Shown piece by piece: positions 20,233 to 32,003 of a DNA stretch of 32,003 bases. The stretch's first letter is position 1, and each line of letters starts with the position of its first letter. Source of the DNA: a virus; the IMG/VR virus record IMGVR_UViG_3300002144_000740, positions 1-32,003 of that record; one strand, written 5' to 3'. The notes under the pieces were generated by a model that was not told where the DNA came from, searched no databases, and saw nothing but the letters and a program-made list of their open reading frames with translations. Both the position numbers and the translations under genes were made by a program.

Positions 20233-21714
20233 ATGGCATATACAATTAATAAAACAGACGGAACAACGCTAACTATCATCGCAGATGGCACAGTTAACGA
20301 TACCAGTACCGAATTAACACTAGTCGGTAAAAACTATGCAGGTTACGGGCAGTTTTTAAACACTAACGTTGTTCATTTGTTGGAAAATTTCAGTAACGAC
20401 ACTGCGCCCACTACACCGTTAACCGGTCAACTTTGGTGGGATACGCAGGGTAACTTAAAAATTTACAACGGGTCTGCATTTAAGACGTTGAGTTCTATCA
20501 CTAGCAGTACTGCACAACCCGCATCAGCAGTAACAGGAAACAGTTGGTGGGACACAGCCAACAGCCAATTTTATGTATACAGTGGAACAAGCTGGGTACT
20601 AGTTGGGCCAGCTTTTGGCAGCAATACTGGAACAAGTGGCACAATCGTTGGTACAATCACAGACACTGGAAACGTTTCCCACGTTGCAGTAAACGTGTTT
20701 GTTGCAGACCAATTGATGACAATTATCAGCAGTGACGACACATATACTCCGCAAACATCTATTACGGGGTTTACAACAATTAAGCCTGGATTTAACTTAA
20801 TTGGCACAGCGGCGCTGGCTAACGTTGCATATTACGGAACTGCCAGCGATTCCAGTACGTTAGGAAACGTGGCTGCTGTGAATTATGCAAGAACAGATAT
20901 TGCTGAAACATTTGACAATACTGTTACTATTAATAACAACAGTGGACTAACGGTAGGCACAGGCACTAATTTCACAACATCGATTAGTGGTACAACTACA
21001 CAATTAACCAGCAATAATAACAATGCCAACATTGCTGTCAGAGTCAATGTAGGTGGCCTGATCACAACCGCAATGCAAGTTATCGGAGCAAATGCAAGAG
21101 TAGATTTTGCCAATGCCATTACCACTGCTGGTACTATCACAGCGCAAGCCACCGGATACATCATTGCCAAGAATACTGATAATGCTACTAGCAATGTCAC
21201 TGGTGCTATACAAACAGACGGCGGTATATCTGCTAAAAAAGCAATTTTCGCAAGCGGCAACATAACATCCTCGGCCAACATTAACGGTGTGTATTTCACA
21301 GGTACTGCTGTTGGCGCATTATATTCTGACTTGGCAGAACGCTATCTGGCGGATGCGGTATACGACCCCGGCACAGTTTTAATGATGGGCGGCGAACAGG
21401 AAGTTACAATTTGCAATGAAGAAAACTCCATTGATGTATTTGGTGTAGTTTCCACTGATCCAGCGTATTTGATGAATAGTCTGAACGGTAGCGCAGAATT
21501 AAGACCTGCTCCTCCAGTTGCTATGGTAGGACGAGTACCAGTTAAAGTGACAGGTCAGGTGAAAAAAGGACAACGTTTAGTGAGTGCACTAAACGGGTTT
21601 GCACAAGCAGCGCCCGATAATGTCAACCCAATGGCTGTTATCGGGAGAAGTTTAGAAAACAAAATGTCAGATTCTGAAGGTGTCATTGAAGCTGTGGTTA
21701 GAATAAATACTTAA
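20233..21714 (+). CDS. Tail fibre-like protein with GQLWWDT repeats and DLAE-type C-terminal domain
   Basis: This 493-aa protein starts with a widespread phage fibre module: LTLVGKNYAGYGQFLNTN (about 29-46), HLLENF, then GQLWWDTQGNLKIYNG (about 65-80). A second copy, GNSWWDTANSQFYVYSG, lies at about 104-120. These resemble sugar-binding-type modules repeated in tandem. A Thr/Asn/Ala-rich shaft runs to about 360. From YSDLAERYLADAVYDPGTV (D366) onward it matches the C-terminal domain of the 499-aa protein, including AYLMNS, GRVPVKVTGQVKKG and a closing AVVRI strand. Two fibres with the same tip or maturation domain and different shafts suggest two receptor-binding or scaffold-like appendages. 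Confidence 0.82.
   Translation: MAYTINKTDGTTLTIIADGTVNDTSTELTLVGKNYAGYGQFLNTNVVHLLENFSNDTAPTTPLTGQLWWDTQGNLKIYNGSAFKTLSSITSSTAQPASAVTGNSWWDTANSQFYVYSGTSWVLVGPAFGSNTGTSGTIVGTITDTGNVSHVAVNVFVADQLMTIISSDDTYTPQTSITGFTTIKPGFNLIGTAALANVAYYGTASDSSTLGNVAAVNYARTDIAETFDNTVTINNNSGLTVGTGTNFTTSISGTTTQLTSNNNNANIAVRVNVGGLITTAMQVIGANARVDFANAITTAGTITAQATGYIIAKNTDNATSNVTGAIQTDGGISAKKAIFASGNITSSANINGVYFTGTAVGALYSDLAERYLADAVYDPGTVLMMGGEQEVTICNEENSIDVFGVVSTDPAYLMNSLNGSAELRPAPPVAMVGRVPVKVTGQVKKGQRLVSALNGFAQAAPDNVNPMAVIGRSLENKMSDSEGVIEAVVRINT
21702..21709 (+). promoter_or_regulatory. T4-late-type promoter octamer AATAAATA
   Basis: AATAAATA overlaps the last codons of the 493-aa gene and lies 17 nt before the ATG at 21727, the same spacing as at the gp6-like gene. 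Confidence 0.45.
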
Positions 21715-21726
21715 AAGGCACAACAG

Positions 21727-22665
21727 ATGACGTATTCATTAGGCGGATTAATTCAAGCAAGCGACTACAATGGTTTTGTAGGCGGAAACGGCGGCGGCGC
21801 AAACGTCTCGGGTCAACTCAACACAGTGTTGGCCACTGGATACGGAAATGCTGGGTACGGTCAATCGGCAGTGTCTAACGTTAGTATCGCTGGATCAGTC
21901 ACTGCCACCCAATGGAGTACATTGGTTGCAGGGGTCAACGTGGTTCGAAGCCACCAAGCTGCATTCAGTAACTTATCGCTTTATGTTGCAGGTACTACCA
22001 TCAATGCAACTACTGATGTTTCTACTAATTTATCAACAGCATATACCAATAGATTAGCTCACGCAGCAACGGGTACAGTTACCACAGGCGCCAACAAAAC
22101 TCTAAACATTGTCAGTGCGAACACCACCGATGCAGTAACTGCGAACCAGGAAAATACCGCAACATTTGCCAGTGCAGATCAGGCACGTTATTTCTTCAAT
22201 GCAGGCGGTGAGCTCCGTTATGTTATTGCCAGCTCCGTTAATACAGGCGCCACAGCTCGCGGATCGTCGTTGGGAACACTGGCAGTCAGCGGCTTAGGCA
22301 CTAAAGTGTTTGACGGTCAGAACGCAGCCGCTCGCACTGGGACTGGTTATACTGTCACTACCGATCAAACGACCGGTGCCGGCTACTTTGGACAAACTGC
22401 TAGTTATGTCACTAGATGTCAAATCACTGGTGGGGACGCAGCATATACCTCAGATTTTGTACGCATACAGACCAAAACAAATGGAGCTCAGGGGTCTAAC
22501 GCTGACAACGGATCAATTTACTATTTTTACCTAACTTTGAACAGCGCCGCACAAAGCCCAGCATTCGACGACAGTATCGATATGACAGTCACTTATCGAA
22601 TTGACGTGGCTGCGCCCAGCACAACATATTTGACTGCGTCATGGGGCGCAGTGACCATCGCCTAA
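21727..22665 (+). CDS. Fibre-like virion structural protein
   Basis: This 312-aa protein has a Gly-rich start (FVGGNGGGANVSGQLN), an Ala/Thr/Asn-rich middle and the motif ARYFFNAGGELRYVI at about 156-170, found in many phage tail or fibre proteins. The C-terminal part is beta-rich: FVRIQTKTN, YYFYLTLNSAA, DMTVTYRIDV. It shows no DLAE domain. AAAGG about 10 nt upstream of the ATG is the best ribosome site in this block. It is the last structural gene before the promoter and stem-loop at 22682-22718. The precise role is unknown. Confidence 0.7.
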   Translation: MTYSLGGLIQASDYNGFVGGNGGGANVSGQLNTVLATGYGNAGYGQSAVSNVSIAGSVTATQWSTLVAGVNVVRSHQAAFSNLSLYVAGTTINATTDVSTNLSTAYTNRLAHAATGTVTTGANKTLNIVSANTTDAVTANQENTATFASADQARYFFNAGGELRYVIASSVNTGATARGSSLGTLAVSGLGTKVFDGQNAAARTGTGYTVTTDQTTGAGYFGQTASYVTRCQITGGDAAYTSDFVRIQTKTNGAQGSNADNGSIYYFYLTLNSAAQSPAFDDSIDMTVTYRIDVAAPSTTYLTASWGAVTIA

Positions 22666-22681
22666 TAGAATACTATTTAGG

Positions 22682-22710
22682 TTGACTTTTAGATAGGTAC
22701 GTAGTAATAT
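22682..22710 (+). promoter_or_regulatory. Sigma70-like promoter candidate upstream of the modification gene block
   Basis: TTGACT (22682-22687), a 17-nt spacer and TAATAT (22705-22710) fit a host-type promoter. Transcription would start near 22717, about 25 nt before the ATG at 22742. The other junctions with octamers lack this arrangement. Confidence 0.4.
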
Positions 22711-22718
22711 GTACCTAT
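22693..22718 (+). terminator. Perfectly spaced 11-bp stem-loop with GTAA tetraloop; terminator or operator
   Basis: ATAGGTACGTA-GTAA-TATGTACCTAT pairs over 11 bp with one G-U pair and leaves a GNRA-type loop. It is followed by TACCTTTTG, a short T run, so it could terminate the fibre transcript. It also overlaps the spacer and -10 of the promoter candidate, so it could be an operator. Confidence 0.5.
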
Positions 22719-22741: not shown

Positions 22742-23059
22742 ATGACTACAGAAATCGAAACGTTAGTGGCTGAGGTTAAACAAGCAACCGACTACCAAAT
22801 CAATAAACGAATATTAAAAGAAAAAATCAAAACGGATTTGCATTTGGTTTACAAAACCGGAATGTTTTTAGTAACCCCGGAACTACTGGCATTTACTGCA
22901 ACTTGGCCTGATGACACATTTTATCTGGCAGATGTATACGAAAATCCCGTGGAGATTATCAAAGAAGAATTTTTGCAATTGGCAAGAATGCATTATCACA
23001 CTGTGATGAATACCTGGCACCAACAGCATGAAGAACTCAAACGAATTAGAAAAGTCTAG
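22742..23059 (+). CDS. Conserved phage protein of unknown function, 105 aa
   Basis: This is a small, mostly helical, charged protein: TLVAEVKQATDYQINKRILK, then KIKTDLHLVYKTGMF and a WPDDTFYLADVYENPVEI segment. The C-terminal helix is rich in His, Glu and Lys (RMHYHTVMNTWHQQHEELKR). It has no Cys pairs, signal peptide or membrane segment. It resembles small uncharacterised proteins near fibre genes in T4-like aquatic phages, but I cannot name the family. It opens the overlapping gene chain behind the 22682 promoter, and its last 32 nt overlap the next gene, so the two are probably translated together. Confidence 0.7.
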   Translation: MTTEIETLVAEVKQATDYQINKRILKEKIKTDLHLVYKTGMFLVTPELLAFTATWPDDTFYLADVYENPVEIIKEEFLQLARMHYHTVMNTWHQQHEELKRIRKV

Positions 23060-23852
23060 AGGCGTTGTAGTCTTTGCGTTTAATACCAATTTGGTAGATT
23101 ACGTTGCCATTGCAGATCTCACTAGTAGACTCACGAATAAATTTTTAAAATTGCCTGTCACACTAATTACTGACAGTAAAGCAGATCCCGGATTCAATTA
23201 TGACAAGGTTGTCAGAGTTGAATACAGTGGCAGTAATTTTAGACCAAATAGATCAGCTGGTATAGATGAGTGGAAAAATTTTGGCAGATACCTGGCTTAC
23301 GAATTAAGTCCGTACGATGAAACAATTTTATTAGATGGCGACTACTTGACATTGGATGATAGTTTACTTAAACTTTGGGAACAACCGTTTGATTATAAAC
23401 TAATGTACGATTCTTCTACTCCCGACGGCAAGATCGCGAATATCATAAGCAACACTGGCTTATCTTTTGTATGGGCCACTGTGGTATTGTTTAAAAAATC
23501 GACTCGTGCAAAAATGCTATTTGATTTTGTAGGAAAAATTCAACGTAACTATCCCTATTACAAAACCTTGTACAATGCCGACGGTTCTTACCGCAACGAT
23601 TATGCTTTTGCGATTGCAGACTTGGTTTTGAATGGGTACACCATTGATAAACAGCAGGGAATCCCTTGGAATATGATGACTATAGAAAATCCAGTAATCA
23701 GTATAGACGTCAATAATCACAAACTTGTGGTAAGGGAAAAAGATCGGGCAATTGTCATGCCCTGGCAAAATTTGCACATCATGGATAAAAAATATCTGCA
23801 ACACTCAAAGTTTAAACAATTTGTTGATGAGGTGGTTGATGTCGCAACATAA
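23028..23852 (+). CDS. Glycosyltransferase-like protein (GT-A type), paralogue 1
   Basis: This 274-aa protein has a Rossmann-like opening strand and loop (RGVVVFAFNTNLVDYVAIA, from residue 11), then PVTLITD. A LLDGDYL motif follows, with Asp-Gly-Asp at 103-105, placed as the metal/nucleotide-sugar DxD motif of GT-A glycosyltransferases. FVWATVVLFKKS and a central RNDYAFAIADLVLNGY segment fit an acceptor-side domain. It is shorter than many enzymes of this type and shows no membrane anchor. Its N-terminal pattern matches the next protein (FA-x-NT-x2-VDY), so the two are tandem paralogues. It overlaps its upstream and downstream neighbours. Donor and acceptor cannot be inferred. Another nucleotide-binding role is possible. 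Confidence 0.65.
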   Translation: MKNSNELEKSRGVVVFAFNTNLVDYVAIADLTSRLTNKFLKLPVTLITDSKADPGFNYDKVVRVEYSGSNFRPNRSAGIDEWKNFGRYLAYELSPYDETILLDGDYLTLDDSLLKLWEQPFDYKLMYDSSTPDGKIANIISNTGLSFVWATVVLFKKSTRAKMLFDFVGKIQRNYPYYKTLYNADGSYRNDYAFAIADLVLNGYTIDKQQGIPWNMMTIENPVISIDVNNHKLVVREKDRAIVMPWQNLHIMDKKYLQHSKFKQFVDEVVDVAT

Positions 23853-24693
23853 AGAGCAACAAGGGTTCGTTACATTTGCGCAAAACACGGACTCGGTTGA
23901 TTATTTAAAATTGGCTTACGTACAAGCCATGAATATAAAGCTCACACAAAAAATCAACAAGTATGCAGTGATAGTGGATAAAAAAACTGCGGCATTGGTA
24001 ACTGATCAACATCGACAGGTGTTTGATTACATAATTGAACTGACTGACGATTGCTCTACTGAATTCAGTAGATTTGCCAATGAATGGCAAGTGTTCCATT
24101 TAACTCCGTTCAAGGAAACAATCAAAGTGGAAAGCGATCTGTTGTTTACTCGTAGCATAGATCATTGGTGGGATACCTTCCGGCTGAGGGACGTGGTACT
24201 GAGTACAGGTTGTAAAAATTATCTCGGCGAAAACAGCAAGGATCGACGCTATAGACAATTTTTCGATGACAATGATTTGCCGGACGTTTACAACGGGTTG
24301 ATGTATTTTAGATACAGTAATCATGCTGCAATATTTTTTGCAAAAGCAAAGGCAGTGTTTGAAAATTGGCAAAGTCTCACCGATTTAGTATTAAAAAATT
24401 GCAGAGAAGACTCGCCTAGTACCGATGTATTGTACGCTGTCACTTCATTATTAACCGACCCGACATTGTCTGCCTTGCCCAGTGCAGACTTTATTAACTT
24501 TGCGCATATGAAGCCCGGTATAAACGGATGGTCGGATGCAGCAGCATGGAATGAATCTGTGCTGACCGAAAGATCTCAGGACATGATTCGTGTTAACCAC
24601 ATTAATCAGTATTCGCCAGTCCATTACTTCGTTAAAGAATATGTTACAGACACTATGGTAAAAGAATATGAGCTTAGATCCGGAATTAATTGA
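23839..24693 (+). CDS. Glycosyltransferase-like protein, paralogue 2
   Basis: The start is placed at the ATG at 23839, preceded by GAGGTGG at a good distance. An upstream ATG at 23752 would add 29 residues entirely inside the previous gene. The 284-aa product begins MSQHKEQQGFVTFAQNTDSV, then DYLKLAY, and parallels the preceding protein. The place of the DxD motif is taken by VESDLLF (Glu-Ser-Asp at 98-100), a variant seen in some GT-A-like proteins. Further signatures are WWDTF, YNGLMYFRYS and SPSTDVLYAV. It overlaps the neighbour on each side. Activity is uncertain because the first acidic residue of the motif is Glu. Confidence 0.6.
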   Translation: MSQHKEQQGFVTFAQNTDSVDYLKLAYVQAMNIKLTQKINKYAVIVDKKTAALVTDQHRQVFDYIIELTDDCSTEFSRFANEWQVFHLTPFKETIKVESDLLFTRSIDHWWDTFRLRDVVLSTGCKNYLGENSKDRRYRQFFDDNDLPDVYNGLMYFRYSNHAAIFFAKAKAVFENWQSLTDLVLKNCREDSPSTDVLYAVTSLLTDPTLSALPSADFINFAHMKPGINGWSDAAAWNESVLTERSQDMIRVNHINQYSPVHYFVKEYVTDTMVKEYELRSGIN

Positions 24694-25036
24694 AGAACTA
24701 AAACGATTAGACGCATTAATGAATGCGCCGAAACCAGTTATCGAATACAGATTTTATCATGATGAATCTGGTAGGATCACTCAGTGTGCAGAAATTTCGC
24801 CGTACCCAGACGGCGATAAGTACATCGTAGTAGATGAATCAGTATACAAAGATTATTACAATTACAGAATTTCAAACGGTCGAGCAGAAAGAATTATTAA
24901 AGACACTGGTCATATAAAATCTTCTTTTGTCAAATGCAACTCGGGGTTTAGAGTTGTCAATGGTCATGCTAGTTTGCTAGTAGAAGAAACTGAAAATTAT
25001 CAAGACATAGAGTATTATGACACAAGAAATAGTTGA
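24668..25036 (+). CDS. Unknown protein, 122 aa, within the glycosyltransferase/radical SAM block
   Basis: This is a small acidic alpha/beta protein. After an acidic helix (LDPELIEELKRLDALMNA) it has YRFYHDESGRITQCAEISPY, a VVDESVYKDYYNYRI segment and a hydrophobic C-terminal half (GFRVVNGHASLLVEE). It has no recognisable catalytic motif, metal-binding cluster, signal peptide or membrane segment. It overlaps the neighbouring genes by 26 nt (upstream) and 20 nt (downstream), so it is co-translated with two glycosyltransferase-like proteins. A subunit or adaptor role is possible, but only the context suggests it. Confidence 0.65.
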   Translation: MSLDPELIEELKRLDALMNAPKPVIEYRFYHDESGRITQCAEISPYPDGDKYIVVDESVYKDYYNYRISNGRAERIIKDTGHIKSSFVKCNSGFRVVNGHASLLVEETENYQDIEYYDTRNS

Positions 25037-25943
25037 TATCGCAGACTTAGACTGCATCTTCCTCACTTACGATGAACCAAAGAAAGAAGAATTTTGGATA
25101 CGTATCCAAAATATGATACCGTGGGCTAAACGGGTAGATGGTGTACACGGTAGTGATGCAGCACACAAAGCAGCCGCAGCAGCTAGTGACACTGGCAGAT
25201 TTGTGTTGATAGACGGCGACAACTTGCCAGACCCAGATTTCTTTAATCTACAACTACAGTTGAATGACCAAAACCGAGACTACGTGTTTCGGTGGAAAGC
25301 ACGTAACGAAGTCAACGGACTAATGTACGGCAACGGAGGATTAAGTTGCTGGACCAAAGACTTTGTTAACAACATGCAGACACATGAACACTCAGATGGG
25401 GCAGACGACACTTGTGTGGAGTTTTGCTTTGATCCTAAATATCAAGCGATGCATGATTGTTACAGCACAACACACCCCAACGGCAGTGCTTACCAAGCAT
25501 GGAGAGCAGGATTCCGTGAAGGTGTAAAGATGTGCTTAGATCGAGGCGCAAAGCCTGATCTTAAAGAATTTGAACGCAAAGTGCATCAACGTAATTACGA
25601 CCATTTGTCAATTTGGCAAACAGTTGGCAGAGATGTTGATAATGGCTGGTGGGCAATCTATGGCGCACGAGTCGGAACTTATTTAACTATGCTGGCAGAT
25701 TGGGACTATCGCCAGGTGCAAGATTTCAACAATCTAAAACAGTTGTGGGAAGATTATAAACACAAAACAGATGAGGACAATGTCATCTTAGGAGAAAACT
25801 TGCAACGTAAACTAGCATTGCCTATCACTGAAATGAGTGCAGATCAGAGCAGATTCTTTAAGCATCATTATAAACAGAGCCAAAAGAATTTGGGAACAAC
25901 AATTACAGAGATGGATATCATTCGTCGACAAGAGGGCTGGTAA
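25017..25943 (+). CDS. Glycosyltransferase-like protein with DGDN motif
   Basis: This 308-aa protein has DLDCIFLTYDEP near the N-terminus, then GRFVLIDGDNLPDPDF with Asp-Gly-Asp at 66-68, a good GT-A DxD motif. NGLMYGNGGLSCWTKDFV follows (about 101-118), resembling the Y-G-x-G-G acceptor-loop segment of bacterial sugar transferases. Several Trp/Tyr residues in the second half (IWQTVGRDVDNGWWAIYGA) could form the sugar or acceptor site. It is not a close copy of the two upstream paralogues. Its stop and the next start form TAATG (25941-25945), which couples it directly to the first radical SAM gene. Substrate unknown. Confidence 0.7.
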   Translation: MTQEIVDIADLDCIFLTYDEPKKEEFWIRIQNMIPWAKRVDGVHGSDAAHKAAAAASDTGRFVLIDGDNLPDPDFFNLQLQLNDQNRDYVFRWKARNEVNGLMYGNGGLSCWTKDFVNNMQTHEHSDGADDTCVEFCFDPKYQAMHDCYSTTHPNGSAYQAWRAGFREGVKMCLDRGAKPDLKEFERKVHQRNYDHLSIWQTVGRDVDNGWWAIYGARVGTYLTMLADWDYRQVQDFNNLKQLWEDYKHKTDEDNVILGENLQRKLALPITEMSADQSRFFKHHYKQSQKNLGTTITEMDIIRRQEGW

Positions 25944-27334
25944 TGACTAAAAGTGTATTTCTTACATCAGCTGAAGATGCCAAAGCAAAATTAGGAGTGG
26001 GTCTTTGTTTGGCAAAGTGGAAACAAGTTAGTTTACACTTGCCCACAGGTCTTAACAACAGTTGCTACCACCCGCCACTGCACCAAATTGATGCAGATGA
26101 AGTGGCAGTAAATCCCAGCGCATTGCATAATACCCAGCATAAAAAAGAACAGCGTAAAATTATGCTGAAGCAAGAACGACCCAGCGAATGTAGTTATTGT
26201 TGGACACAGGAAGACCTGGGAAATTTAAGTGACAGGCACTATCGCAGCGGTGAGCCGTGGGCTGCTGTTGACTTTGAAAAAATAAAAAATAGCACAGGAG
26301 ACGAAGATGATGTTATACCCAGTTACGTCGAAGTCAATTTTAATCACGCTTGCAATCTTTCTTGCAGTTATTGCAGCCCTCAATTTAGCAGCACCTGGCA
26401 GTCAGAGGTGGACAAATTTGGAGGTTACCCTACTACTCCTATACACAACGACCCTAGTCATTTTACCGGACGTAATCGACCTATTCCAGCAAGAGAAGAC
26501 AACCCATATGTTGATGCCTTTTGGCGGTGGTGGCCTGAACTCTATCCTACACTAGAGCATTTTAGAATGACCGGTGGTGAACCGCTCATGGATAAAAATA
26601 CCTACCGTGTGTTTGATCATGTACTGGCAAATCCCAGCCCTAAGTTGCATTTGAATGTAACCAGTAACTTTAGTGTAGAAGACAGTTTGTTTGACAAGTA
26701 TTTAGACTATGTAAAACAGATGACCAGCAACCAACCAAAATACTTAGAACACTTCATGCAGTACGTTAGTTTGGATGCAATGTTTGAACGTGCTGAGTAC
26801 GGAAGGCACGGACTAGACTTCGAACGTGTTTGGCATAATGTAAATCGTTTCCTAGCTGAAGTACCTGATCGCAGTAGTTTAACATTTATTATTACTATGA
26901 ATACATTAAATGTAACGGGATTTCACGAGTTGATAAATGGAATCCATGGACTCAGACAAGTGTATAGTAAAACATATCAGCGTGTTTGGTTTGATACTCC
27001 AATTTTACGACAGCCTGCTTGGCAGAATGTACAGATACTGCCAGAAGAGTATACTGACCCGCTGGAAGAAGCCTGGGCATTTATGTGTAGTAAAACAGAA
27101 CAACCAGATAATCTCTACAAAGGATTTAAAGATTACGAGATGCATAGATTACAACGAGTAATCGATTATATGCAAGAAGGTTGCAAATTGGATTCAGAAT
27201 ATGTTACAATGCAAAGAGCAAATTTCGCAAGGTTCTTTAAGGAACACAACAGTCGTCGGGGAACTGATTTTTTGACTACGTTTCCCGAGATGTCAGAGTT
27301 CTGGAAAGAATGTAATTACCATGCACACCAATAA
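25943..27334 (+). CDS. Radical SAM enzyme with N-terminal twitch-type cluster domain, copy A
   Basis: In this 463-aa enzyme four Cys (22, 41, 83, 86) form an N-terminal auxiliary-cluster domain: GLCLAKW, NSCYHPP, then ECSYCWTQED. The catalytic CNLSCSYC (137-144) is the CX3CX2C motif that binds the [4Fe-4S] cluster and S-adenosylmethionine. CSPQFSSTW follows it and GGEP (211-214) contacts the cofactor. The C-terminus closes with RGTDFLTTFPEM. This is the architecture called twitch domain-containing radical SAM protein, in which the auxiliary-cluster domain precedes the barrel. Such enzymes modify peptides, sugars or small molecules by radical chemistry; the substrate here is unknown. It is coupled to the upstream GT by TAATG and overlaps copy B by 14 nt. 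Confidence 0.85.
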   Translation: MTKSVFLTSAEDAKAKLGVGLCLAKWKQVSLHLPTGLNNSCYHPPLHQIDADEVAVNPSALHNTQHKKEQRKIMLKQERPSECSYCWTQEDLGNLSDRHYRSGEPWAAVDFEKIKNSTGDEDDVIPSYVEVNFNHACNLSCSYCSPQFSSTWQSEVDKFGGYPTTPIHNDPSHFTGRNRPIPAREDNPYVDAFWRWWPELYPTLEHFRMTGGEPLMDKNTYRVFDHVLANPSPKLHLNVTSNFSVEDSLFDKYLDYVKQMTSNQPKYLEHFMQYVSLDAMFERAEYGRHGLDFERVWHNVNRFLAEVPDRSSLTFIITMNTLNVTGFHELINGIHGLRQVYSKTYQRVWFDTPILRQPAWQNVQILPEEYTDPLEEAWAFMCSKTEQPDNLYKGFKDYEMHRLQRVIDYMQEGCKLDSEYVTMQRANFARFFKEHNSRRGTDFLTTFPEMSEFWKECNYHAHQ

Positions 27335-28670
27335 AAAAGAAACAGATTTAGAATATAAACGCAGAGTAATCGACATCAAGTCAGATTCATTCTGCGGAGC
27401 CAAGTGGTACAATGCTACTATTTGGCTGGGCAGCGGTATGACCACCAGTTGCCACCATCCATTGCCACACAAAGTAGAAGTGTCTGAGGTTCTTACAAAT
27501 CCCAAAGCATTGCATAACACGCAGAAGAAAAAGATGGAGCGCGAGCAGATGCAGAAAGGTGAACGACCTAGTGGATGTGAATACTGCTGGAAGATTGAAG
27601 ATATTGGCAGGGACAACGTGAGTGACAGAGTTTACAAGACTAAAATTTATTCAGACGAGGATTTATCTTATGCAGCCAGAACACCAGCAGGTACAGATAT
27701 TGACTTACAAACCTTGGAAATCGCGTTTGATCGTACTTGCCAACTTGCTTGTAGTTATTGCAATCCTGCTTTTAGCAGCACATGGGTCAATGATATTCGT
27801 AAGCATGGGGAATACACTGGATTGGTTTCAGACGGTCGCAATCATTTCACTCATGCTCATGATAGTAGCCAACTGTATAAGTTTAGTCAACATAATCCGT
27901 ACGTAGATGCATTTTTTAAGTGGTGGGAAACAGACCTCCACCGAACTCTGAAAGAACTACGCATCACTGGCGGCGAACCGTTAATGAGTGGAGAAACTTG
28001 GAAACTGATTGACTGGTTTAAAGAGAACCGAGGTAAGAGTACAACACGTCTTGCCATCAACAGTAATTTAGGACCTAACATCGATATTGATAGGTTAATT
28101 GCCAGTGTCGATGGTTTAGAGATTGATTTATATACCAGCAACGAATCAGTTGGTGCCCAAGCAGAGTACATTCGTGATGGACTGGACTATGACCAGTGGA
28201 TGAAAAACGTTGTTAAACTCGTTGAGAGCAAACGATTTCGAGGTATGCATGTGATGTGTACGGTTAATGCATTATGCTTGGATAGTTTGCCAGAGTTTTT
28301 AGACCAACTAGTGGAACTGAAAAAACAATATGGAAAAGACTATCCAAATTTTACGCTAAATATCCTAAGATTCCCTAGTTTTCAAAGTGCGCTGGTATTA
28401 CCAGACGACATACGTACCCAATATAAAAATAATTTGATAAATTGGCTAGACAAGCACAGAGCCAATGACTACATGCACGAGCATGAAATTAATCATGTTA
28501 TCAGATTGATAGACTATCTGGACGTAGTTAAAACTCCCCACAGTGAAGCATTTGACATGCCCAAGTTACACAATGATTTCAAGGAATTCTATTCACAGTA
28601 CGACATACGTAGGAACAAAGAGTTCGCTACTGCATTTCCTGCTTTGGCTAACTGGTATAATACTTTATGA
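27321..28670 (+). CDS. Radical SAM enzyme with N-terminal twitch-type cluster domain, copy B
   Basis: This 449-aa enzyme is closest in layout to copy A. The auxiliary Cys are 25, 44, 86 and 89 (SFCGAKW, SCHHPLPH, GCEYCW), with the same NP-x-ALHNTQ helix between them. The radical SAM motif CQLACSYC is at 140-147, followed by CNPAFSSTW and GGEP at 217-220. The C-terminus is RNKEFATAFPAL. It starts 14 nt inside the end of copy A and ends in an ATGA overlap with copy C. A and B appear to be sister subtypes, separate from C and D, because both use a S-C-x-H-P element where C and D use P-C-C. Confidence 0.85.
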   Translation: MHTNKKETDLEYKRRVIDIKSDSFCGAKWYNATIWLGSGMTTSCHHPLPHKVEVSEVLTNPKALHNTQKKKMEREQMQKGERPSGCEYCWKIEDIGRDNVSDRVYKTKIYSDEDLSYAARTPAGTDIDLQTLEIAFDRTCQLACSYCNPAFSSTWVNDIRKHGEYTGLVSDGRNHFTHAHDSSQLYKFSQHNPYVDAFFKWWETDLHRTLKELRITGGEPLMSGETWKLIDWFKENRGKSTTRLAINSNLGPNIDIDRLIASVDGLEIDLYTSNESVGAQAEYIRDGLDYDQWMKNVVKLVESKRFRGMHVMCTVNALCLDSLPEFLDQLVELKKQYGKDYPNFTLNILRFPSFQSALVLPDDIRTQYKNNLINWLDKHRANDYMHEHEINHVIRLIDYLDVVKTPHSEAFDMPKLHNDFKEFYSQYDIRRNKEFATAFPALANWYNTL

Positions 28671-29995
28671 GCGAAGAAAAAACAATAAAAGAGTTTTATA
28701 AAAATTATGATTACATGTCCAAGGCTCCTTACTTTATAGACAAAGAGCAGCTGACAGAAAAAGAAGCTGGCTTACTCATGGGTAGTAAATCGTTTTGTAT
28801 GCTGCCTTGGATGCATATGCACGCCTTCCCAGATGGCAGAGCGTATCCTTGTTGTCTTGCTGACTATTGGCATCCAGTTGGTGACCTGCGTAAAAACACC
28901 ATGGAAGAAGTCTGGAACCAAGACAAGTACAAAGACATGCGTAAGAACATGATGGCTGGCAAAGAGTGCAAGGAATGCACCAAGTGTTATGAGCAAGAGG
29001 ACAACGGGTTCTTTAGCATGCGCAACGACTCTAATAGAAACTATGGGCATCTCATTAAGGAAGTAGAAAATACCAAACTTGATGGTGAACATGCAGAATT
29101 TAAACTTCGTTACTGGGATGTACGGTTTAGCAACTTGTGTAACATGAGTTGCAGAAGCTGTGGTCCTATCTTTAGCAGCAACTGGTACAAAGATCACGTT
29201 AAACTATATAATAAAAAGCCTGACGTTTTGGGTAGAGAGATGCTGCGGATCGAGTATACTACGGGTGATGAAGATGACATGATTAATCAGATGTTACCTC
29301 ACTTACCTCACCTAGAACAAGTTTACTTTGCAGGTGGTGAACCGCTTATCATGAAGGAACATTATTTCATGCTGGAGAAGTTAATCGAACTAGGCAAAAC
29401 GGATGTGCGTGTGCAGTACAACACCAACTTCAGTGAGATGCGGTATAAAGACAAGCATGTATTCGAATACTGGAAAAACTTTAAGAGTGTTAGCGTTGGT
29501 GCAAGTTTGGATGGTATGGGCCCACAAGCAGAATTGATACGCAAAGGAACAAACTGGCAGCAAACTGAAGATAATCGTAGGCGTATGATAGAAGAAGCAC
29601 CACATGTGGATTTTTATGTTAGTGCCACTGTTAGTGCGATGAATGTGTTACATATATTGGACTTTCATAAAGAATGGGTAGCAAAGGGGTTGATCGCTGC
29701 CAAAGATTTTAACATCAATGTTCTACAAGGACCGCAGTGGTATCGAATCGACATACTGCCCACATGGTTTAAAGAAGAAGTTGTGTACCCTGCATACGAA
29801 GCCCATATAGCCTGGCTAGAACCACAAGACACTTTGCAACGTGCAACCAACGGGTATAAAAGTCTATTAAATATGATGCGAGCAACAGACAATAGTCATG
29901 ACTTTGAAAAATTTAAAAGAGAAATCTACATCTTAGACAAACTGCGTGGTGAGAAATTTTGGGATACGTTTCCAGAGCTGGCGAGGTTAAAATGA
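28667..29995 (+). CDS. Radical SAM enzyme with N-terminal twitch-type cluster domain, copy C
   Basis: In this 442-aa enzyme a 40-residue leader precedes the cluster domain: FCMLPW (C44), YPCCLA (C62-C63), then C101, C104 and C107. The last set, ECKECTKCYEQED, has one more Cys than the other copies. The radical SAM motif CNMSCRSC is at 158-165, followed by CGPIFSSNW. GGEP is at 223-226 and RGEKFWDTFPEL closes the protein. FCMLPW-x(11)-YPCCLA is the classic N-terminal twitch signature. ATGA overlaps join it to copies B and D. Whether the extra Cys belongs to a cluster cannot be judged. Confidence 0.85.
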   Translation: MSEEKTIKEFYKNYDYMSKAPYFIDKEQLTEKEAGLLMGSKSFCMLPWMHMHAFPDGRAYPCCLADYWHPVGDLRKNTMEEVWNQDKYKDMRKNMMAGKECKECTKCYEQEDNGFFSMRNDSNRNYGHLIKEVENTKLDGEHAEFKLRYWDVRFSNLCNMSCRSCGPIFSSNWYKDHVKLYNKKPDVLGREMLRIEYTTGDEDDMINQMLPHLPHLEQVYFAGGEPLIMKEHYFMLEKLIELGKTDVRVQYNTNFSEMRYKDKHVFEYWKNFKSVSVGASLDGMGPQAELIRKGTNWQQTEDNRRRMIEEAPHVDFYVSATVSAMNVLHILDFHKEWVAKGLIAAKDFNINVLQGPQWYRIDILPTWFKEEVVYPAYEAHIAWLEPQDTLQRATNGYKSLLNMMRATDNSHDFEKFKREIYILDKLRGEKFWDTFPELARLK

Positions 29996-31197
29996 ACTTA
30001 CCTGAATCAATTTGCATGCTACCTTGGATCAGTATCGAAGCAAGTCCAACTGGAACGGCCCGTCCTTGTTGTTTAGCCAGAGAAGATATTGCTGGAATTG
30101 ATTTGAGAACAAATACATTACAAGAAGCATATCAAAGCGAATACATGCAAAACATGCGCCGACAGATGCGTAGTGGTGAAAAACCTGCTACTTGTAAACT
30201 TTGTTGGGATGAAGAATCTGCTGGTAGAGACAGCAAACGTATGCATAGTCGTGTGCGATTGAAAGAACTGTATCCACAAGTTGACTGGCAAAATGATACA
30301 CCAGACCAATTGTGGTTCTTAGATTTAAAATTAGGCAACATTTGCAATTTAAAATGTCGCATATGCGGTAGTTGGAGCAGTAGTAAGTGGGCAGCCGAAG
30401 AATTAGATTACATGCCCAAAGGTTCTAATAAAAAAGAACACATTGCGTACACTTGGCTTAAACAAGGTAAGTGGCCAGAAGAATCTCCAAACTTTTGGGA
30501 AAATCTTAAAAAATTATTGCCGCATATCAAATACTTTGAATTTACCGGGGGTGAACCTTGGTTAATACAAGAACACTGGGACCTGTTAAAGTATGCAGTG
30601 GAAACAGGCGAAAGCAAACACATCGACATACACTACAACACCAATGCAACTGTTGATGTTTTGGGACTTGAAAAATCTCTATTATGGGAAAGTTTCGGAC
30701 GTGTTGATATTGCATTTAGTGTTGACAATGTGGGCAAGCGGTTTGAATATGAACGTTACGGAGCTGATTGGGACAAAGCAAATGAAATAATCGACGGTGT
30801 GCATTTTGCCAGAGATATTGATGCCCCAAATATCACTACCCAACTTTGTTTTACAGTGAATATTCAAAATGTCTACTATATCGACGAGTTATTGGAATGG
30901 GCAAAAACTAAATCGTTTAACAGCATTTATTTTAATATGATGCACGGACCAATAGAAATGAGCATTGCTTATATGACGCCAGCGGCAAAAGAGTTAGTGT
31001 TGAACAAACTTAAAAATACATTTTGGAAGTCAGAATTTTATCAACAAGAAATTGACAATGTAATAAAATTCATTGACAACGGCCCAGGCAGTGATGGGGC
31101 AGAGTTTTTGTTTAACATGCAACGTACTGATGCATATCGTAAACAAAACTTCATGGATACACACCCCGAGATAGCCGAGGCTATGGGATATGAATAA
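29992..31197 (+). CDS. Radical SAM enzyme with N-terminal twitch-type cluster domain, copy D
   Basis: The start is taken at the ATG at 29992, in an ATGA overlap with copy C and with GAGG upstream. An in-frame ATG at 29959 would add 11 residues inside copy C. The 401-aa product has C8 (CMLPW), C26-C27 (RPCCLA), C68 and C71 (TCKLCWDEE), then the radical SAM motif CNLKCRIC at 118-125 and GGEP at 186-189. The C-terminus is RKQNFMDTHPEI. It lacks the leader of copy C and is the shortest of the set. A convergent homing endonuclease ends 6 nt after its stop, and a fifth copy begins beyond it. Confidence 0.87.
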   Translation: MNLPESICMLPWISIEASPTGTARPCCLAREDIAGIDLRTNTLQEAYQSEYMQNMRRQMRSGEKPATCKLCWDEESAGRDSKRMHSRVRLKELYPQVDWQNDTPDQLWFLDLKLGNICNLKCRICGSWSSSKWAAEELDYMPKGSNKKEHIAYTWLKQGKWPEESPNFWENLKKLLPHIKYFEFTGGEPWLIQEHWDLLKYAVETGESKHIDIHYNTNATVDVLGLEKSLLWESFGRVDIAFSVDNVGKRFEYERYGADWDKANEIIDGVHFARDIDAPNITTQLCFTVNIQNVYYIDELLEWAKTKSFNSIYFNMMHGPIEMSIAYMTPAAKELVLNKLKNTFWKSEFYQQEIDNVIKFIDNGPGSDGAEFLFNMQRTDAYRKQNFMDTHPEIAEAMGYE

Positions 31198-31202
31198 CCA
31201 GT

Positions 31203-31832
31203 CTATTTCTTATTCCATGGAACTTTACCAAAATTTGGATTTTTAGCACCTTTCTTACTCTCACTGAGTTTTCTTTTATGTTCTTCGGATAATGGTCTTC
31301 CCTTTCTAGAAGTTGACATTTTTTCCTTAGTCTCAGCAGAGTGAGTCATACCTTTATTCCATGCAATTTTACCAGTATTCTTTTCTGCAATCTCTTTGAT
31401 TTTTGAATTTGTTTCTTTAGTTTGTCCCTTGCTCCATGCAGTGCGACCAAACATTGGATTATTTGTTCCGCTTGTTGCTATTGAAATTTTAGACTTTGTT
31501 TCTTCTGTATGGAACCGTCTAATATTTTTAAGAATTTCAAATTTCTTTGTAGTTAGTTTTCTATCACCGTACGGGGAAAATGATATACGAATGAAGGCAT
31601 AATTCATTTTACTTAATGCATCATTTGATGTCATCTCTGTGAGTAACCAATGACAAAGGAAATGTTCCCTTGCAGTAAGCGTGACTAAGTTTCTGAGTGA
31701 GTTGTCGCCACCTAGACTTTTAGGAATGATGTGATGTTTTTCGGTATAAACATCTGCTGGTAAAGTTCTTGTTTGTGCGTTAGTGATTATGTTATAATAC
31801 CAACGAGTATATTTGTTATCTATAAATAACAT
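31203..31832 (-). CDS. Free-standing HNH homing endonuclease with NUMOD3-type DNA-binding repeats
   Basis: This 209-aa protein is the only convincing gene on the minus strand. KHHIIPKSLGGDNSLRNLV (from residue 32) is the HNH core, with His33-His34 and Asn48 in expected places and H57 and H61 after it. The C-terminal half has NUMOD3-type repeats: SGTNNPMFGR, TGKIAWNKG, KEKMSTSRKGRPLSEEHK, KGAKNPNFGK. This arrangement is standard for phage mobile endonucleases that cut a target gene and spread by homing. It lies between radical SAM copies D and E, antisense to them, and ends 6 nt from the stop of copy D. No intron signature is seen, so it is probably free-standing. Confidence 0.88.
   Translation of the reverse strand: MLFIDNKYTRWYYNIITNAQTRTLPADVYTEKHHIIPKSLGGDNSLRNLVTLTAREHFLCHWLLTEMTSNDALSKMNYAFIRISFSPYGDRKLTTKKFEILKNIRRFHTEETKSKISIATSGTNNPMFGRTAWSKGQTKETNSKIKEIAEKNTGKIAWNKGMTHSAETKEKMSTSRKGRPLSEEHKRKLSESKKGAKNPNFGKVPWNKK
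31821..31828 (+). promoter_or_regulatory. Exact T4 late-promoter consensus TATAAATA, plus strand
   Basis: TATAAATA lies inside the first codons of the endonuclease and points toward copy E, whose ATG is 84 nt downstream. It is the only exact match to the T4 late consensus seen in the window. Confidence 0.45.
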
Positions 31833-31895
31833 TGCTGATAGTTCCTTGTAAACTGGTAGAGCAGGTGGTAGTTGACGCTACGCGATCTGCACTTT

Positions 31896-31903
31896 TATTT
31901 ATC
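31896..31903 (-). promoter_or_regulatory. Late-type octamer GATAAATA, minus strand, upstream of the endonuclease
   Basis: The plus strand reads TATTTATC, which is GATAAATA on the minus strand, 63 nt upstream of the endonuclease start. It is the same variant as before the gp6-like gene. Confidence 0.4.
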
Positions 31904-31911
31904 AATTAATT

Positions 31912-32003
31912 ATGGAATTTCCAAAAGAAAAGCCCCCCAATTTTTGCCTTGCGCCATTTGTGCATACATATTTGTCGCCGGTTACAGAACGCAGGATGTG
32001 TTG
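31912..32003 (+). CDS. Radical SAM enzyme with N-terminal twitch-type cluster domain, copy E (5' end only)
   Basis: Thirty residues are visible before the window ends. NFCLAPFVHTYLSPVTERRM, closing with a Cys codon at residue 30, follows the opening of copies C and D: C12 fits the CMLPW Cys, and SPVTERRMC fits SPTGTARPCC. The next codon starts TG, so a second Cys is likely. It therefore appears to be a fifth member of the array, with the homing endonuclease between it and copy D. The ATG at 31912 is the only suitable start; no strong ribosome site precedes it. Confidence 0.7.
   Translation, partial: MEFPKEKPPNFCLAPFVHTYLSPVTERRMC

Follow-up and report, generated by a model that had tools for sequence, protein, structure and literature searches.

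The 32,003-nucleotide stretch of DNA analysed here, referred to in its full length as the window, is a fragment of the IMG/VR virus record IMGVR_UViG_3300002144_000740 (positions 1 to 32,003), whose source we read as a T4-like jumbo phage. Of a conserved operon, k10-k8-k9-k5-k6-A-B-C-D-E-k2-k1-k3, it holds the upstream two thirds; A to E are five distinct radical S-adenosylmethionine (SAM) enzymes with an N-terminal twitch domain (N-twitch) and intact cluster ligands. Judged by their sequences, the five are old paralogs that lie far from each other and are kept as a non-redundant set. The operon belongs to T4-like jumbo phages that have not been cultured and whose relatives include Phosso, Atu_ph07 and CBB/121Q. 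We tentatively propose that it encodes a multi-step, glycan-type tailoring pathway, whose target would most likely be one of two tail or adhesin proteins, k7 or k12. The enzymes are laid out as follows:

25943..27334, plus strand: radical SAM enzyme A, 463 amino acids; NF033640 at 317.8 bits
27321..28670, plus strand: radical SAM enzyme B, 449 amino acids; NF033640 at 296.4 bits; sister group of A in the tree
28667..29995, plus strand: radical SAM enzyme C, 442 amino acids; NF033640 at 410 bits; PF13186 and PF04055 over cut-off
29992..31197, plus strand: radical SAM enzyme D, 401 amino acids from the first in-frame ATG; NF033640 at 338.3 bits
31912..32003, plus strand: start of radical SAM enzyme E, about 30 codons in the window; E-family profile at E=6e-13

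Working from the letters of the window without database searches, an earlier note had described four complete, consecutive N-twitch radical SAM enzymes and the start of a fifth. Profile hidden Markov model searches bear this out: A–D score 296–410 bits along nearly their whole length against NF033640, the NCBIfam model for twitch domain-containing radical SAM proteins (N_Twi_rSAM; curated cut-off 170 bits), the E orthologs of related contigs likewise exceed the cut-off, and the reading frame of E in the window (31912-32001, MEFPKEKPPNFCLAPFVHTYLSPVTERRMC) matches the E profile. We regard it as near certain that A–E are radical SAM enzymes. Among A–D, only C passes the Pfam Radical_SAM model (PF04055) alone, and in both C and D the N-terminus matches the SPASM model (PF13186) over cut-off. 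For D, the open reading frame tool sets the start at a TTG (29959), and the first in-frame ATG is at 29992. Single-sequence searches found no solved close relatives of these enzymes; distant ones were found by profile only.

The cysteine motifs described in the earlier note are equally well founded. A–D each have an N-terminal quartet of the form C-x17/18-C...C-x2-C and a CX3CX2C motif, which reads CNLSCSYC in A, CQLACSYC in B, CNMSCRSC in C and CNLKCRIC in D. Across alignments of 25–31 orthologs per enzyme, all seven cluster cysteines and the GGEP motif are essentially invariant in every group, E included, with at least one row of the B alignment departing from the conserved cysteines. Because of this conservation, the motifs are far beyond chance; furthermore, 80 diverse members of the C, D and E groups keep the radical SAM and twitch cysteines. 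The possibility that the genes are inactive relics was rejected, since their catalytic motifs are essentially invariant. In all five enzymes, the twitch domain lies N-terminal to the radical SAM core, and the C-terminal auxiliary cluster domain that marks the SPASM/twitch maturases of ribosomally synthesized and post-translationally modified peptides (RiPPs) was not found in them. The structural model of C (pLDDT 95.8) has the partial TIM-barrel core of radical SAM enzymes, and the matches shown in its fold comparison are radical SAM structures throughout (Z 9.5–12.9). Since its top neighbours, among them the sugar-nucleotide enzymes BlsE and DesII and the peptide enzymes SkfB, CteB and anSME, are tied within one Z unit, the fold of C alone does not choose a substrate.

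The junction of k6 and A is a shared TAATG, A and B overlap by 14 bp, and B/C and C/D by an ATGA each. The translationally coupled run of five that the earlier note had read from the window accordingly holds from k6 to D; it fails at E, which is split from D by a homing endonuclease gene that the note had missed:

31203..31832, minus strand: NUMOD3/HNH homing endonuclease, between D and E; PF07460 at 4.8e-25, phrog_655 at 5.3e-41

D and E are thus neither adjacent nor coupled in the window, whereas in many relatives they are. In nearly all loci, the reading frames overlap from k10 to k1.

Related loci were collected in three scans, which yielded 38 relatives (query C), 70 further loci (profile) and 80 loci (query k6). 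By our count, this amounts to about 170 related viral contigs, with some contigs hit twice. Among the first 38 relatives, every contig that is long enough carries A-B-C-D-E in this order, with occasional inserted genes. The enzymes are 60–81% identical to their own orthologs (64–81% for A) and 22–32% identical to the other paralogs of the cassette. The main group has A–E in one copy each, overlapping and nearly always in the same order; the wider set includes one subgroup with the order A-B-C-E-D as well as some loci at which C and D read as one open frame. Two N-twitch enzymes appear to be fused in a single frame at L163:10001-12550, where they are C and D, and in frames of 834–846 amino acids in G052 and G057. 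Elsewhere in related jumbo genomes, a ClpP gene is joined to an N-twitch radical SAM gene, the two being 0–10 bp apart or overlapping (L281:6823-8707, L283:6187-8114 and L288:6010-7943).

The scan with k6 is independent of any selection for radical SAM genes. At the loci that it found, k12, k7, k10, k8 and k9 lie upstream in 71 of 71 with enough flank, and A lies downstream in 73 of 73; where more than 9.9 kb is available to the right, the full set ABCDE is present in 30 of 51. Among the others are loci broken up by inserted genes or truncated where the stretch ends; a diverged group has other sets, down to A alone. We therefore reject the view that the gene order is an artefact of choosing loci by C, as the search with k6 gave the same order. 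Copy number does vary: the diverged relatives carry only A, or A with two or three C-like copies, extra copies being 25–39% identical, and whole records hold between 1 and 13 members of NF033640. In one scan, the family matched at least 597 environmental viral stretches.

In a FastTree phylogeny, the long branches of which are unsure, A, B and E each form one clade and C and D each essentially one, with A and B as sister clades; the exception is one fused C-D frame, labelled D, that falls within C. Recent tandem duplication was rejected as the origin of the five, given the low identity of the paralogs and their deep clades. Bacterial members, many of them from Bdellovibrionota, lie outside the A–E clades or as their neighbours. 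N-twitch arrays are also carried by contigs binned as bacterial, namely L086 (a Rickettsiales metagenome-assembled genome, MAG), L087 (an unassigned MAG) and L077 (a Bdellovibrionia MAG), some of them near carbamoyltransferase or GT-like (glycosyltransferase-like) genes. With these profile searches, alignments, tree and locus comparisons, the earlier note's identification of the enzymes stands.

In the window, the cassette is preceded by genes for a baseplate hub/lysozyme, a gp25-like protein, a baseplate wedge protein, a 4459-amino-acid structural protein and tail proteins, followed by k7; then come k10-k8-k9-k5-k6-A-B-C-D, the HNH/NUMOD3 homing endonuclease on the reverse strand and the opening 30 codons of E. 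The baseplate wedge protein has its closest counterparts in phages of 350–490 kb, such as Phosso, Atu_ph07, CBB and 121Q, and relatives of the cassette are found on contigs of up to 374 kb. The features from the last tail genes up to A are:

20233..21714, plus strand: k12, tail protein, last tail gene before the cassette; PHROG structural/tail matches
21727..22665, plus strand: k7, 312-amino-acid Gly/Ser/Thr-rich structural-type protein, fast-evolving by alignment; candidate substrate
22682..22718, plus strand: predicted sigma70-type promoter TTGACT-17-TAATAT with an inverted repeat across the -10 box
22742..23059, plus strand: k10, 105-amino-acid protein, first gene of the overlapping operon; conserved in relatives
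23028..23852, plus strand: k8, GT-A-like protein with an invariant D-x-D(Y) motif; no profile match
23839..24693, plus strand: k9, second GT-like protein; start at 23839 or 23827
24668..25036, plus strand: k5, 122-amino-acid conserved protein, in 68 of 71 loci
25017..25943, plus strand: k6, GT-A-like protein with an invariant DGDN motif, directly before A; from an AlphaFold model and fold comparison

k12 is about 40% identical, over 53% of the query, to proteins of Phosso and Atu_ph07; k7 has no match among isolate phages. As to the glycosyltransferase genes that the earlier note had placed upstream, it was right in kind, as the k6 model resembles GT-A enzymes at modest scores (best Z 7.5, Foldseek E 0.009). 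By sequence, the assignment is weak: k6, k8 and k9 have no Pfam match over cut-off. For k9, a further TTG at 23752 falls outside the family alignment. k10 and k5 are small and co-translated, and a search of both for repeat or core-like motifs gave none.

Downstream of E, the relatives carry k2, then k1 (SGNH), then k3, a carbamoyltransferase of the TobZ/GdmN type in which both the N- and the C-terminal domain were found (PF02543 at 1.2e-33, PF16861 at 4.1e-45), with GdmN and TobZ as solved homologs. k2 (L007:14111-15184 and relatives), a protein of about 360 amino acids conserved behind E, gave no family match; with its invariant His, Glu, Asn and Gln residues, it is possibly a new enzyme. At the end of the cluster, k14 (L023:19884-21308) is a conserved protein with repeated WHP...FPSxWQ units. 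The accessory inserts appear to resemble fucosyltransferase-type, epimerase-type or further radical SAM proteins, which is in part our own reading. By hydropathy, the operon's proteins all stay below the usual threshold for a membrane span.

The promoter boxes (22682-22710) and the 8-bp arms of the inverted repeat, ATAGGTAC and GTACCTAT (22693-22700 and 22711-22718), lie ahead of k10 in the 63-bp gap between k7 and k10, a position conserved in relatives. Among 124 distinct k7-k10 gaps, 62 score at least 10/12 for such a promoter, against 2.8 expected from shuffles, a count inflated by relatedness, and 66 contain long inverted repeats, against 2.4 in shuffles; the k12-k7 gap, with a median of 19 bp, is too short for more than a weak promoter control. 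The modification operon is probably its own transcription unit, and the palindrome across the -10 box looks operator-like. Upstream of k12, T4-type late promoter motifs are enriched across relatives, with 22 of 109 exact against about 0.2 expected; the window's single match to a T4 late promoter is at chance level and falls within the homing endonuclease region.

Taken together, these comparisons lend moderate support to several non-redundant enzymes in one multi-step pathway. We favour a single pathway because the enzymes form deep, separate clades, occur in one copy each and in a fixed order, and are translated together with the GT-like, SGNH and carbamoyltransferase proteins. In the proposed glycan-type pathway, the GT-A-like enzymes would attach sugars, and the five radical SAM enzymes would work in succession, either on the sugar or on the sugar-bearing residue. 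The CX3CX2C cluster of each would generate a 5'-deoxyadenosyl radical for hydrogen abstraction, and the single N-terminal twitch cluster would bind the substrate or accept an electron. To complete the decoration, carbamoylation and acylation or deacylation would follow, leaving the receptor-binding apparatus with a coat of unusual chemistry. We count the carbamoyltransferase, the SGNH protein and the GT-A-like k6 as glycan-type partners in favour of this pathway. For the target, k7 and k12 are the likeliest candidates, since the operon lies directly behind tail/adhesin genes and nothing evidently devoted to membranes or export is encoded in it; both target and chemistry are our inference.

An independent link to glycosyltransferases, which supports such a pathway without proving it, comes from the isolate Vibrio phage K566. 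Like the cassette, it interleaves NF033640-type enzymes with a glycosyltransferase, carrying one N-twitch enzyme, a GT8 (PF01501) and two more N-twitch enzymes consecutively; it differs in the low identity (about 23%), the other neighbours and the smaller number of enzymes. Several observations weigh against the glycan-type pathway. Neighbourhood is not proof of a target, and the substrate assignment is drawn from gene context. The glycosyltransferase assignment of k6 is weak (E 0.009, Z 7.5), that of k8 and k9 is motif-based, and no precursor-like repeat is present in the cassette. Furthermore, the operon's own promoter appears to be of the sigma70 rather than the T4 late type, so that expression may be apart from, perhaps before, that of the tail proteins. 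Lastly, although bacterial relatives speak for the pathway in having GT2, carbamoyltransferase and further radical SAM genes nearby, their neighbourhoods are mixed, with GT2 in only 4 of 104 neighbours.

The main rival is RiPP-like maturation, in which the five enzymes would modify residues of a virion protein directly, by epimerisation, thioether formation, C–C cross-linking or C-methylation, with glycosylation being secondary. SPASM/twitch enzymes often modify peptides, and an N-twitch enzyme is directly joined to ClpP in the related genomes mentioned above. Moreover, two isolated rhizobial jumbo phages, Sinorhizobium phage Phosso (L291:16999-24742) and Agrobacterium phage Atu_ph07 (L293:17811-25460), carry an operon of several radical SAM enzymes directly behind their k12 homolog, as in the cassette; this site next to the tail gene may thus serve as a slot into which systems for radical-SAM modification are placed. 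The best weak matches of these enzymes are largely peptide maturases (PapB, DynA, DarE and HxsB), and beside them is a protein of 296–306 amino acids with a C-terminal CHxSCHxSCHxSRSRR segment, ending in CHTSCHASCHSSRSRR or CHSSCHASCHNSRSRR, a repeat-like tail as in RiPP cores; it may be a virion protein that undergoes RiPP-like maturation. The common position is an analogy, however, since the Phosso and Atu_ph07 operon differs from the cassette in consisting of three to four enzymes of the C-terminal SPASM type, outside NF033640, and a cupin-like protein. A CHxS-repeat protein was searched for in the cassette loci and found in none, and no RRE domain is reported in A–E. Direct peptide modification as the main event seems less likely to us than the glycan-type pathway.

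Modification of the host surface, by which the operon would edit lipopolysaccharide or capsule during infection and, for example, block superinfection, is improbable. The glycosyltransferase, SGNH and carbamoyltransferase genes would suit surface polysaccharides, a sigma70-type promoter would suit early expression, and a PagP-like gene lies near the K566 cluster; nevertheless, the operon has no flippase, polymerase, membrane glycosyltransferase or, by hydropathy, membrane span, and the fixed place behind tail genes would be left unexplained. The earlier note had left it between a multi-step pathway and parallel enzymes on related substrates. The comparative data favour the former, and the latter keeps some support from the diverged relatives and their varying sets. 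Since the main group keeps all five, deeply separated and in one copy each, partly redundant copies that diversify a product instead of performing successive steps are still less probable. Least probable of all is a nucleic-acid or small-molecule pathway, such as modified base, queuosine-like, cofactor or antiviral-nucleotide chemistry: profile similarity to the radical SAM cores of QueE, MoaA and viperin is weak, far below family cut-offs, and reflects the shared core, and the partners are glycosyltransferase, SGNH and carbamoyltransferase rather than nucleotide genes.

Phages decorate their DNA and sometimes their virions. We put forward, as an unlikely idea, a phage assembly line in which five radical SAM enzymes, one step each, would install carbon-centred modifications and sugars on a tail-tip adhesin, a virion surface chemistry with no known counterpart in cellular organisms; other jumbo phages would fill the same slot with a different radical SAM operon acting on a repeat-tailed tail protein. 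If true, few chemistries put forward for a virus would be as elaborate as a conserved pathway of five radical SAM enzymes encoded in one operon. Thanks to the gene sets, the strict order and the isolates with synteny, the function is open to direct tests, among them whether phage adhesins undergo radical modification, and the operon of Phosso and Atu_ph07 offers a tractable model in isolates.

In the phage collection searched, no isolate has the cassette: k7, k10 and k6 are without a match in 50,697 records, and A, C, D and E have distant matches only, all four in Vibrio phages K566/K567 and C and D also in a short marine virus contig. A literature search on tail modification by phage radical SAM enzymes yielded no relevant report. 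Phages rich in radical SAM genes are already published (PMC5332604, PMC12390700, PMC7029224); in the accessible text of these articles, we did not find this operon described. The earlier note's view that single radical SAM genes occur in phages and five are unusual is therefore only partly right, with eight and twelve in published phages (PMC12390700, PMC5332604) and up to 13 family members per record in the relatives. The marine T4-like virus TARA_ERS488813_N000010 has 12 radical SAM genes, which the available part of the article discusses as Fe-S biology, describing no five-gene operon with glycosyltransferase and carbamoyltransferase genes (PMC5332604). Aeromonas phage 332-Vera, which as a member of the Chimallinviridae belongs to a different phage group, has eight in its structural gene cluster, among tail fibre and baseplate genes (PMC12390700). 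The tail-fibre region of pelagimyophages, within their host-recognition cluster, likewise contains cassettes of radical SAM genes, whose order, number and partners are not described in the text at hand (PMC7029224). Finally, A–D agree with NF033640 over their full length, with an N-terminal twitch and a radical SAM core as in the family; the family name comes without a function, whereas here five distinct subgroups stand together in one operon.

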